DNA of 43,968 nucleotides, taken from NCBI RefSeq assembly GCF_017306585.1, contig NZ_JAFKIC010000137.1:1-43968 (forward strand). The letters are read 5' to 3'. This stretch comes from Mesorhizobium sp. (lineage in GTDB: Bacteria > Pseudomonadota > Alphaproteobacteria > Rhizobiales > Rhizobiaceae). Numbering within the stretch: the first letter of the stretch is position 1; the number at the start of each line of letters is the position of its first letter. The translations under genes and the position numbers were made by a program. Shown piece by piece: positions 10,958 to 20,364 of the stretch. The notes below the pieces were generated by a model. It had not been told where the DNA came from and did not search any database. It saw nothing but the letters and a program-made list of their open reading frames with translations.

Positions 10958-10990
10958 TTGACTTTTGTCGAGAGCCGTGACTATTGTCAG
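10958..10990 (+). promoter_or_regulatory. Promoter/operator of the SorC-type regulator
   Basis: TTGACT at 10958-10963 and TATTGT at 10982-10987, 18 bases apart, form a plausible promoter. Overlapping it are two direct repeats, GACTTTTGTC (10960-10969) and GACTATTGTC (10979-10988), 19 bases apart. The second contains ATTGTCA, also found in the importer/mtnK palindrome and before the aldolase gene, so autoregulation is likely. Confidence 0.5.
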
Positions 10991-11003
10991 CCGAGGAGGC
11001 GGC

Positions 11004-11969
11004 ATGGCGATCCGACCGGCAGAACAGCTCATCCACAAAGCCGCCTGGCTCTACTATGCGCACGGGCTGCGACAGGACCAGGTGGCGAGCCAGCTCAACA
11101 TTTCGCGCGCCTCGGTGGCGATGTATCTGCGCAAGGCGCGCGAGACCGGCATCGTCAACATCTCCACCTCGACCCAGCTCTTCACCGACGATGTGATGGC
11201 GCGCCAGCTCGAGGACGCGCTCGGCCTCGACGCCGTCTGGATCGCACCGGAGAACGGCCACGTCCCGGATCCGGCAACGGATATCGCCGTGCTTGCGGCA
11301 AGCGTGTTTCTCGAACTGGTCAAGAAGGGCGACCGCATCGGCGTCGCCTGGGGCCGAACCGTCTATACGATCGCCGACATCATGTCCTATGCCGACCTGC
11401 AGGATGTCACGGTGGTGCAGCTCTGCGGCAATCTCGGCGCGCCCTATTCCTACCGGCCCGACCAGTGCACGATGGAAATCGCGCGCCGGCTCAACGCCAA
11501 GGGCCTCAATTTCTACGCGCCGCTGGTGCTGTCGACGGAAGAGCTGGCGCAGGCGCTGCGCGCCGAACCGGTGATCCGCGAGCAATTGTCGGGAATCGGC
11601 AATTGCGACCTGGCGCTTTATTCGGTCGGCGCCGTCGATGCCGAAAGCCATCTGGTCAAATGCGGCGCGCTGACGCAGAGCGAAATGGCGGAGCTGCGCA
11701 GCCGGGGGGCAGCCGGCGTCATTGCCGGACAGATCATCGATGCCGACGGCAAGGTGCTCGACTGCAGCTACAACAGGCGCGTGATCTCCGCCGAGCTTAC
11801 CTCGCTACGCGCCATCGCCAAACGGCTGATGGTCGTGCAGGAGGACAGTAAATTCGAACCGCTGCTGGCGGCGATCGCCGGCGGACTTTGCACCCATCTC
11901 GTGGTCGGCGCGCACATGGCGCGGCGGCTGCTCGATCATGCCGGGACGGCAGCGCAAAAGGCATCCTGA
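11004..11969 (+). CDS. SorC-family sugar-responsive regulator
   Basis: Transcription factor of 321 residues. The N-terminal helix-turn-helix (about residues 20-50, with GLRQDQVASQLNISRASV) is followed by a SorC-type sugar-phosphate-binding domain to the end. Proteins of this family usually bind a phosphorylated sugar intermediate that switches off repression. The ATG at 11004 follows GAGGAGG by four bases; an upstream in-frame start is unlikely because it lacks a ribosome site and would begin in the promoter. It is 87 bases before the aldolase/dehydrogenase gene on the same strand and is the natural candidate regulator of that gene, the ribose-type importer and mtnK-mtnA. A ketose-1-phosphate is a reasonable guess for its inducer. 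Confidence 0.88.
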   Translation: MAIRPAEQLIHKAAWLYYAHGLRQDQVASQLNISRASVAMYLRKARETGIVNISTSTQLFTDDVMARQLEDALGLDAVWIAPENGHVPDPATDIAVLAASVFLELVKKGDRIGVAWGRTVYTIADIMSYADLQDVTVVQLCGNLGAPYSYRPDQCTMEIARRLNAKGLNFYAPLVLSTEELAQALRAEPVIREQLSGIGNCDLALYSVGAVDAESHLVKCGALTQSEMAELRSRGAAGVIAGQIIDADGKVLDCSYNRRVISAELTSLRAIAKRLMVVQEDSKFEPLLAAIAGGLCTHLVVGAHMARRLLDHAGTAAQKAS

Positions 11970-12056
11970 AGACCCACCCTTTGCCGGCGCATTGTCATCA
12001 AGGCGTCGCGGCATTCCTGTTTCACCATCCAAGACAGCAACCGGACGAAGCGAAAA

Positions 12057-17900: not shown

Positions 17901-17929
17901 GGCAATTGTCAACACGATTGACAATTGCC
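17901..17929. promoter_or_regulatory. Palindromic operator with divergent -35 boxes (importer / mtnK)
   Basis: Perfect inverted repeat GGCAATTGTCAA / TTGACAATTGCC around CACGA. Each arm contains TTGACA pointing outward. Reading right, TTGACA (17918-17923) plus 17 bases gives TAGCTT (17941-17946) before mtnK. Reading left, TTGACA (17907-17912) plus 17 bases gives TAGCGT (17884-17889) before the importer. A protein bound here would cover both -35 boxes. The SorC-type regulator is the likely ligand because ATTGTCA also occurs in front of its own gene and of the aldolase gene. The rest of the 137-base gap holds the leaders. Confidence 0.75.
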
Positions 17930-18001
17930 AGACAGCTTCCTAGCTTGGCCCCGCCGCCAAGGCTCCCCTATGATCGGAGCGCAAAGGCGGGAGGGAGCAG
18001 A

Positions 18002-19273
18002 ATGACCGGGAAATCGCCGTTCGAAGCATTGTCGGTGGAGACGTTGGCAACACGCCTCGGCACGAACGAAGCGCTGTGCGCTGAGATCGGCAAGGACACC
18101 ACGCAATGGAAAGTCCGCGAAGTCGGCGACGGCAACCTGAACCTCGTCTTCATCGTCGAGGGCGCCAGTGGCGCCGCCGTGGTCAAGCAGGCCCTGCCCT
18201 ATGTGCGCCTTGTCGGCGACAGCTGGCCGCTGCCCTTGAAGCGCTCCTTCTTTGAATATCACGCATTGACCCGGCAGGAGCGACGCGCGCCCGGCTCGGT
18301 GCCGGCGATCTATCATTTCGACGAGAGCCAGGCGCTGATCATCATGGAATATCTGTCGCCGCACATCATCCTGCGGCGGGCGCTGATCGAAGGCCGGCAA
18401 CTGCCCAACATTGCCCGGGATATCGGCCTGTTCATGGCCCGCACCCTGTTCCGGGGCTCCGACTTCTCGATGGTGACGAGGGAGCGCAAGGCGGATCTCG
18501 CGCTGTTTGCCGACAATGTCGAGCTCTGCGACATCACCGAGAACCTGGTTTTCTCGGACCCCTATTTCGATGCTAAGATGAACCGGCACACCAGCCCGCA
18601 GCTCGACGGCCTTGTCGCCGAGCTGCGTGCCGACCGCGACCTCAAGGTCGAGGCGCAAAGGCTGAAGCACCTCTTCGCCGCCAATGCGGAGACCTTGCTG
18701 CATGGCGACCTGCATTCCGGCTCGATCATGGTCACCGACAAGGAGACCCGGATGATCGATCCGGAATTCGCCTTTTACGGCCCGATGGCCTTCGATGTCG
18801 GCATGCTGCTTGCCAATTTCTGGATGTCCTTCTTCTCGCAGCGCGGCCACGAGCAGGACGGCAAGCGCGATGCGATGCGCGCCTATCTGCTCGATGTGAC
18901 CGCCGAGACCTGGGCGGTGTTCCGCGCCGAATTCTCGCAGCTGTGGCGAACCGAACGCACCGGCATGCTCTATCAGAAGAGCCTCTTCGAGGATCAGGGC
19001 GACAGGCTCGGCGCCGAACAGGCGCTCGACCAAGTGCTGCACCAGATCTGGGACGACCTTCTGGGGTTCGCCGGCATCGAGGTGCACCGGCGCATCCTTG
19101 GCCTCGCCCACAATGCCGACTTCGAGACCATCGCCGACGAGGACCTGCGCGCTTCCTGCGAGGCGAAGGCGCTGAAATTCGGCCGTCACATCGCCGTCAA
19201 CCGGCGCCAGATACACGGTATCGACGAGGTCAACCATCTCGCCGCGCTGATCGAACAGGAGAATGACATTTGA
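18002..19273 (+). CDS. mtnK: S-methyl-5-thioribose kinase
   Basis: Protein of 423 residues in the aminoglycoside/choline-kinase fold. It phosphorylates the C1 hydroxyl of 5-methylthioribose with ATP (EC 2.7.1.100). Seen: the nucleotide-loop region [14 protein letters not shown] near residue 42, catalytic HGDLHSGS (H234-D236-H238) and the metal-binding DPEFAFYGP starting at D253, all typical of MtnK. The ATG at 18002 follows GGGAGG. It overlaps mtnA by four bases, and both are divergent from the ribose-type importer, sharing its palindromic operator. No MTA nucleosidase or phosphorylase and no mtnB, C, D or E lies in the window, so the substrate may come from outside the cell. Related 5-deoxyribose could also be accepted, as reported for DHAP-shunt kinases. 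Confidence 0.93.
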
Positions 19274-20364
19274 ACGTCGGCGACCGCCACTACCGCACCA
19301 TCTGGCTGAGCGACGACAAGCGTTCGGTCGAGATCATCGACCAGCGCTGGCTGCCGCATGAGTTCCGCATCGAGAGGATCGGCACGGTTGGCGGCATCGC
19401 CACCGCGATCCGCGACATGTGGGTGCGCGGCGCGCCGCTGATCGGCGTCACCGCCGCCTATGGCGTCGCCATGCAGATGGCCGAGGATGCGTCCGATGCC
19501 GCGCTCGACGCCGTGTGGGAGACGCTGCACGAGACGCGCCCGACGGCGATCAATCTGCGCTGGGCGCTCAACGAGATGCGTGACTTCCTCAAGCCGTTGC
19601 CGACGGAACAACGCGCTGAAGCCGCCTACCGGCGGGCCAGCGAGATCGCCGACGAGGATGTCGGGCTGAACCGCTCCATTGGCGAAAACGGTCTTGCGAT
19701 CATCAAGCAGATCGCCGCCGGCAAGAAGCCGGGCGAGACCGTCAACATTCTCACTCACTGCAATGCGGGCTGGCTGGCGACTGTCGACTACGGCACCGCG
19801 ACCGCGCCGATCTATCTCGCTGTCGAGGCCGGCATTCCCGTCCACGTCTATGTCGACGAGACAAGGCCGCGCAACCAGGGCGCCCAGCTGACCGCCTGGG
19901 AGATGGCCGGCCATGGCGTGCCGCACACGCTGATCGTCGACAATGCCGGCGGACATCTGATGCAGCATGGCGCGGTCGACATGGTGATCGTCGGCACCGA
20001 CCGCACCACCGCCGACGGCGACGTCTGCAACAAGATCGGCACCTACCTCAAGGCGCTGGCCGCCGCCGACAACAATATCCCCTTCTATGTCGCCCTGCCC
20101 TCGCCGACCATCGACTGGACCGTCCATGACGGCCTGAAGGAGATTCCGATCGAGGAACGCTCCAGCGATGAGGTTTCGCTCGTCTGGGGCAAGACATCGG
20201 ATGGCAGGATCGCCCAGGTGCGCATCTCGCCCGAGGCGACGCCGGCGGCGAACCCGGCCTTCGATGTGACCCCGGCGCGGCTGGTCACCGGGCTCATCAC
20301 CGAGCGCGGCGTGGCGAAAGCCTCGCGCGAGGGGCTGAAGGCGATGTTCCCCGAGCGCGGGTAA
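19270..20364 (+). CDS. mtnA: S-methyl-5-thioribose-1-phosphate isomerase
   Basis: Protein of 364 residues, eIF2B-alpha-like fold, converting 5-methylthioribose-1-phosphate to the ribulose-1-phosphate (EC 5.3.1.23). The catalytic Cys lies in THCNAG (Cys164) and the catalytic Asp in [10 protein letters not shown] (Asp244); the [10 protein letters not shown] segment near residue 50 is also a family mark. The start is TTG at 19270, within TTGA shared with the mtnK stop, preceded by AGGAGA; this gives the expected N-terminus with HYRTIW. The product is a ketose-1-phosphate, which in DHAP-shunt organisms goes to a class II aldolase. An aldolase fusion of suitable type lies 5 kb away in the same locus. 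The downstream Lrp-type gene converges with only a 10-base gap and no visible terminator. Confidence 0.94.

Follow-up and report, generated by a model that had tools for sequence, protein, structure and literature searches.

The seven-gene locus at positions 10958-20364 of a 43,968-nucleotide contig of Mesorhizobium sp. (NZ_JAFKIC010000137.1, here called the window; contig C169 of a 7.09-Mb genome) is quite probably an inducible module for the uptake and breakdown of 5-methylthioribose (MTR), and probably of 5-deoxyribose too, through the dihydroxyacetone phosphate (DHAP) shunt. An ABC importer would bring MTR, a sulfur-containing sugar left over from cell metabolism, into the cell, MtnK would phosphorylate it at C1 and MtnA would yield 5-methylthioribulose-1-phosphate. 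The aldolase half of a fusion between a class II aldolase and a short-chain dehydrogenase (SDR) would then cleave this intermediate to DHAP and (methylthio)acetaldehyde, which the dehydrogenase half would oxidize with NAD+ to (methylthio)acetate, so pulling an aldol cleavage of unfavourable equilibrium. A nucleosidase encoded elsewhere in the genome would also feed MTR from internal 5′-methylthioadenosine (MTA), and a SorC regulator acting on a palindrome would repress both divergent promoters until the sugar or the sugar phosphate builds up. Judged by its genes, this would be a known type of pathway whose aldolase, importer and operator are unusual.

The seven genes are all intact open reading frames (ORFs). 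On the forward strand, sorC (11007..11969; a SorC-family regulator with its sugar-binding domain, PF04198, 178.8 bits) is followed by the fusion (12057..14111; NF006192, 1148.8 bits, cut-off 639). The importer genes lie on the opposite strand, convergent with the fusion and divergent from mtnKA, and encode a periplasmic binding protein (14179..15261; PF13407), a ribose-type permease (15279..16274; PF02653, 151 bits) and an ATPase (16353..17864; PF00005, 163.6 bits). The ORF of the ATPase is open to 17924, and the ATG at 17864 is preferred as its start because the operator described below sits upstream of it. The block ends on the forward strand with mtnK (18002..19273; 5-methylthioribose kinase, TIGR01767, 510.6 bits, cut-off 275) and mtnA (19270..20364; 5-methylthioribose-1-phosphate isomerase, TIGR00512, 429 bits, cut-off 279), the latter being the single match found in the whole genome. 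MtnK matches the solved chain 2olc, named methylthioribose kinase, with E 8.2e-77. ORFs and family scans thus confirm an earlier note on this DNA, which had placed a SorC regulator, the fusion, a ribose-type importer, mtnK and mtnA in one block.

The conservation of that block was checked in named loci, the best 80 of at least 569 that encode a relative of the fusion. In this set, the named genomes closest to that of the window are Mesorhizobium. The complete seven-gene set was present within the fetched stretch in 70 of the 80. Two loci (L069 and L071) have sorC, fusion, mtnK and mtnA in one direction and lack the importer; three (L040, L043 and L059) are truncated by a contig end; and five (L049, L077, L086, L060 and L076) carry sorC and the fusion alone, the sequence of the first three of these stopping about 2 kb or less past the fusion.

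Judged by family score and by tree, the fusion is distinct from RhaD fusions, for all its resemblance to them. It scored 482.7 with the curated RhaD model TIGR02632, below the cut-off of 567.75, and belongs to NF006192, a model that names no substrate. In the tree, a long branch parts the fusions of the window type from the RhaD of the same genome and from another RhaD-type fusion (L153). The genome search did find a separate rha locus on contig C235, where rhaI and rhaS accompany a fusion above the RhaD cut-off. So, of the earlier proposal that a RhaD-type fusion acts as the third enzyme, an aldolase fusion in that role stands, while its identity as RhaD does not. In the alignment of 83 fusions, H139, H141 and H200 were invariant, as were D466, Y582 and K586; S569 varied once, and residue 125 was E in 81 of the 83 and D in both RhaD-type rows. 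The roles of these conserved residues are presumed to be those of the class II aldolase and SDR families. Together with the linkage to mtn genes, they suggest the aldol step, and the fusion is predicted to be a 5-methylthioribulose-1-phosphate aldolase joined to an NAD-type aldehyde dehydrogenase. The window aldolase gave no meaningful match to E. coli Ald2, and 6btd, which we take to be DrdA, was absent from the three solved chains matched by the aldolase domain at E <=1. The fusion aldolase would therefore be a non-orthologous replacement of the stand-alone Ald2.

Of 385 alphaproteobacterial genomes, 71 hold a relative of the fusion at E <=1e-100; one of these (G070, locus L153) is of RhaD type and is excluded from the co-occurrence counts and from the counts over 59 loci given below. 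Of the 71 matches, all from genomes other than that of the window, 60 were fetched and 11 were not. In 37 of the 60 fetched loci, mtnA, mtnP or mtnK lies on the same strand within 3 kb upstream of the fusion: mtnA and mtnP in 16 (with mtnP up to 7 kb off), mtnA alone in 15, mtnP alone in five, and mtnK with mtnA in one. The other 23 loci include the RhaD-type one and five with less than 2 kb of upstream sequence. The linkage reaches beyond close relatives, with the order mtnP-mtnA-fusion in Tistrella and mtnK-mtnA-fusion in Gemmatirosa (Gemmatimonadota). At the level of genomes, mtnA was matched in 66 of the 70 with a fusion and in 115 of the 315 others (Fisher 2e-20, uncorrected for kinship); acireductone dioxygenase (ARD, MtnD) was present in seven of the 70.

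The palindromic operator, of 25 bp (17903..17927), lies between the divergent importer and mtnKA, and its arms hold two -35-like boxes. It contains the exact 19-mer TTGTCAA-N5-TTGACAA at 17906-17924, and the consensus between ATPase and mtnK is CA(A/T)(A/T)TGTCAA-N5-TTGACA(A/T)(A/T)TG. The 19-base core was found at <=2 mismatches in all 79 ATPase-mtnK regions (the window and 78 loci). The arms covary: in 27 distinct versions, 264 of 270 symmetric positions agree, against a shuffled mean of 251.1, and none of 5000 shuffles was as high, a result that is not a strict probability as the sequences are related. A -10 element fitting the divergent boxes was present in 68 of the 79 regions on the mtnK side and in all 79 on the importer side. 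The exact 19-mer occurs once in the genome; at <=2 mismatches there are 11 sites and six for the reversed control, so the operator is informative only when near-exact. In the 397 genomes of the order, that of the window included, the full palindrome pattern occurred 13 times in 13 genomes, always between ATPase and mtnK, and the reversed pattern not once.

The sorC side differs. The motif scan of the window gave five matches at <=3 mismatches, with 0.24 expected from 100 shuffles, and one of them is a weak copy with three mismatches before sorC (10965..10983). So, the operator motifs described earlier as shared are exact for the importer and mtnKA and weak for sorC. A promoter-like TTGACT-N18-TATTGT lies on the forward strand before sorC (10958..10987), and a conserved element, TTGACTTTTGTC, that starts there is kept upstream of sorC in 83 of 86 regions; promoter-like sites in the region number three against 1.4 in shuffles and hence prove nothing by themselves. 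No operator motif was seen directly before the fusion, which is thus probably read together with sorC. The sorC product is 31% identical over 305 aa to E. coli YjhU (E 5.6e-54) and is a candidate counterpart of that regulator, also called MtnR, which is reported to repress the E. coli DHAP shunt (PMC12632272). SorC is predicted to bind the palindrome and to repress from it.

Several observations weigh against the proposed module. No mtn gene was nearby in 22 of the 59 class-wide fusion loci, four of the 70 fusion genomes gave no mtnA match, and L060 and L076, with 10 kb of sequence on each side, carry sorC and fusion and neither mtnKA nor importer. The substrate cannot be read from the family name alone, since a fusion of R. 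leguminosarum that also scores above the family cut-off has glycerol-phosphate genes around it. Nor is the fusion obligatory: Sinorhizobium (L177, S. meliloti 1021 pSymB 1628000-1652000; L168; L169) combines SorC, importer and mtnKA in a stretch that lacks it. As for sorC, its operator copy is weak, and others with three mismatches also occur outside the block at 4829, 27642 and 41695, so that the copy before sorC proves little alone.

SDRs can run in either direction, and this counts for a rather unlikely alternative, namely a reduction of the aldehyde by the dehydrogenase half, with 2-(methylthio)ethanol or ethanol as the product, like the one reported in R. rubrum and E. coli. D466, a kind of residue that we take to favour NAD(H), is present in all 83 aligned fusions and argues against it. 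Alcohols are indeed products of known DHAP shunts under several conditions (PMC5893883, PMC10986504). On the other hand, the C. aurantiacus RhaEW oxidized lactaldehyde and was inactive with NADH; according to the same source, RhaEW proteins join aldol cleavage to an aldehyde oxidation that requires NAD+ (PMC3870299). It is by analogy with RhaEW that the SDR half is read here as oxidizing, and the fusion likely shares the aldehyde-oxidizing logic of those proteins. The equilibrium constant of such aldol cleavages is about 1e-4 (PMC6079011), so a fused oxidation would be a sensible pull.

That the true substrate is 5-deoxyribose, used as a carbon source with DHAP and acetate as products, and not methylthioribose, seems less likely still. 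The characterized kinases and isomerases of MtnK and MtnA type take both sugars (PMC6079011, PMC10986504), and sugar transporters also occur in some drd clusters (PMC6079011). Against this, the closest solved relative of the binding protein is 4ry8 (TLET_1677), titled 5-methylthioribose transporter solute binding protein, and the window protein is accordingly annotated as predicted to bind 5-methylthioribose. L057, with a stop within its translation, was left out of the binding-protein alignment. An importer homologue of R. leguminosarum, with a binding protein 59% identical, lies among sulfur-acquisition genes, near sfnB, and Shinella H4-D48 has a TauE-type sulfite exporter and metC near mtnA. 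Binding protein and sulfur-gene neighbours thus favour MTR over 5-deoxyribose.

The dedicated importer of the earlier note is borne out, with its genes in the block and homologues beside mtnK/mtnA in Sinorhizobium and near them in Klebsiella. The further claim, that the importer replaces the intracellular supply from MTA, is not supported. Although the TIGR01704 nucleosidase model had no match in the genome, a wider family search found an MTA/S-adenosylhomocysteine (SAH) nucleosidase on contig C269 (TIGR01705, 407.5 against a cut-off of 152.2; closest solved relative 4pr3), so internal MTA can yield MTR usable by MtnK, and an obligatory replacement is ruled out. The importer would rather supplement the internal supply with external or leaked MTR. 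A genomic match resembling MTAP was rejected, as it is a purine nucleoside phosphorylase (PNP) instead. In consequence, the locus can be called self-contained for the uptake and three-step breakdown of the imported sugar and not beyond that.

Least probable is that the fusion is a mere neighbour serving another sugar pathway, through rhamnulose-1-phosphate or a glycerol-type route: its RhaD-like architecture, the 22 unlinked loci and the R. leguminosarum member would agree with this, and the separate rhaI-rhaD-rhaS locus of the same genome, the long branch, the linkage to mtnA across phyla with co-occurrence in 66 of 70 fusion genomes, and the single-direction arrangement in L069 and L071 all speak against it.

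Among known systems, the E. coli DHAP shunt, whose cluster is reported to permit growth on 5-deoxyribose (PMC10986504), is close to the proposed MTR module. The window MtnA shares 62% identity, and MtnK 45%, with the E. coli proteins; both pass their family cut-offs, which supports the DHAP-shunt logic put forward earlier, and the kinase and isomerase steps may be assigned from family membership and from the work on E. coli and Bacillus (PMC10986504, PMC6079011). The regulators share a family, and the E. coli cluster likewise includes sugar transport; yjhU neighbours genes for a GRP transporter and an aldolase annotated FucA (Ald2 in the papers), as well as mtnA and mtnK, in both E. coli genomes that were read. 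The differences are that the transporter is of GRP and not ABC type, and that Ald2 is a stand-alone protein annotated as L-fuculose-phosphate aldolase, unlike the fusion. A scan of some 600 bases before one E. coli mtnK gave no palindrome at <=4 mismatches. Of the components of the shunt (MtnK or MtnP, MtnA, a nucleosidase and the FucA-like Ald2), the window genome encodes MtnK, MtnA and the nucleosidase, and the locus lacks an Ald2-like aldolase. On contig C94 the genome also encodes a FucA-like aldolase that stands alone (L001); it shares 38% identity with E. coli Ald2 but fits solved FucA better than 6btd.

The drd clusters of Bacillus thuringiensis likewise pair a kinase and an isomerase with an aldolase, and some include sugar transporters (PMC6079011), but DrdA is a FucA homologue, and its solved chain, taken to be 6btd, was not matched by the window aldolase domain at E <=1. 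With RhaEW and RhaD_aldol-ADH, the fusion has in common the two domains and, as in the two RhaD-type rows, the three His and the SDR residues; it differs in its NCBIfam model, its long branch, E125 in place of D, and its position outside a rha locus. The importer finds its counterpart in the MTR transporter of the 4ry8 type, TLET_1677 being the closest solved structure to its binding protein. Canonical methionine salvage (MtnBCD) differs from what the window genome offers: there was no match for ARD, and none of the seven genomic class II aldolases reached the cut-off of an MtnB model (mtnC and mtnE were not searched). This extends to the genome the lack of mtnB and mtnD noted earlier for the window; rhaI, listed with them as missing from it, lies on another contig.

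Some relatives carry a different continuation of the pathway. Downstream of mtnA, 11 of 91 loci, none of them named Mesorhizobium, encode two transketolase halves (TkN and TkC) and a RuBisCO-like protein (RLP), with gaps of only a few bases in annotated loci. These extensions of the mtnK-mtnA operon were seen in Rhizobiaceae and Mariluticola (L099:19318-22375, L075, L081, L084, L087, L094, L097, L098, L100, L101 and L102). An RLP-like match in L011 was not counted, since it is 25% identical, lies apart from mtnA on the opposite strand and is not accompanied by transketolase halves. The nearest solved relative of the RLP is R. palustris 3qfw (E 5.6e-71); the structure model of the RLP was poor (pLDDT 46.8), and its structure matches were used solely for the 3qfw title. 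A literature search on 3QFW gave nothing relevant among open-licence papers. As 2qyg is named RLP2, 3qfw may be RLP1, a protein reported to act on methylthioribulose-1-phosphate (PMC5893883). The loci resemble the MTA-isoprenoid shunt of Rhodospirillum and R. palustris (RLP plus cupin) in adding an RLP, and differ from it in carrying a split transketolase in place of the cupin; Terrarubrum has a 39% RLP relative followed by a cupin, as in that shunt. The window genome, in contrast, has no RuBisCO-family match.

Independent support for the operator comes from a plasmid of Ponticoccus alexandrii (Rhodobacterales, a Roseobacter relative; L170:1524-10128, L192:1333-6780), where the palindrome lies between a BMP-type importer operon, ended by a SorC gene whose product is 33% identical, and a divergent operon with the order PNP-amidohydrolase-mtnA-molybdopterin oxidoreductase-transketolase-RLP; no fusion was found in the stretches read. 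It can be suggested, tentatively and as less likely than its contrary, that one MTR-responsive regulon defined by palindrome and SorC has two exchangeable branches, either the fusion or the RLP with split transketolase. In the second branch, the RLP would turn 5-methylthioribulose-1-phosphate into 1-methylthioxylulose-5-phosphate (and 5-deoxyribulose-1-phosphate into 1-deoxyxylulose-5-phosphate, DXP); the thiamine enzyme would cut C2-C3, the carbanion expelling methanethiol to leave an acetyl unit and glyceraldehyde-3-phosphate, and a sulfur-releasing transketolase would thus stand in for the cupin of the MTA-isoprenoid shunt. Three cases speak against a fixed association: a 34% RLP relative in Vibrio is accompanied by transketolase halves together with an FGGY kinase, no mtn gene being matched there; the 25 kb read with the Shinella zoogloeoides RLP gave no mtn match; and in Shinella H4-D48 the seven genes occur without transketolase or RLP.

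As to the surroundings of the locus, the fusion-importer gap is shorter than 200 bases in 19 of the 70 complete loci and exceeds 2 kb in 20, with differing genes inside, and seems to be an insertion site. The junction is longer than 200 bases in 51 of the 70 (for example L057:12667-13983 and L056:13393-14991), and an ORF that by eye resembles D-Ala-D-Ala ligase recurs in the gap in 18 loci. The gap genes were rejected as pathway genes, as they look unrelated and vary by locus, judged from clusters and translations without a family scan. Directly after mtnA, at 20375-22139 of the window, lies a divergent pair of an Lrp-type regulator and a major facilitator superfamily (MFS) exporter; S. medicae (L169) has a comparable pair some 12 kb away from its mtnA. 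A minus-strand group at 32207-38557 comprises another class II aldolase, of 410 aa, and next to it a GlpD-type dehydrogenase, a 2-hydroxyacid dehydrogenase, an FGGY kinase and a UgpC-type ATPase.

In the open-licence literature no account was recognized of the fusion as a methylthioribulose-1-phosphate aldolase, or of this locus in rhizobia, which does not prove that none exists. If the proposed module is real, the DHAP shunt would take in, beside the FucA-like Ald2, a large family of alphaproteobacterial fusions (70 of the 385 sampled genomes, excluding the one of RhaD type). The RLP and transketolase operons of the relatives hint at a possible new route for freeing the methylthio group. The shunt itself would gain a dedicated importer and an operator, and sulfur sugars from neighbours or host plants could be scavenged.

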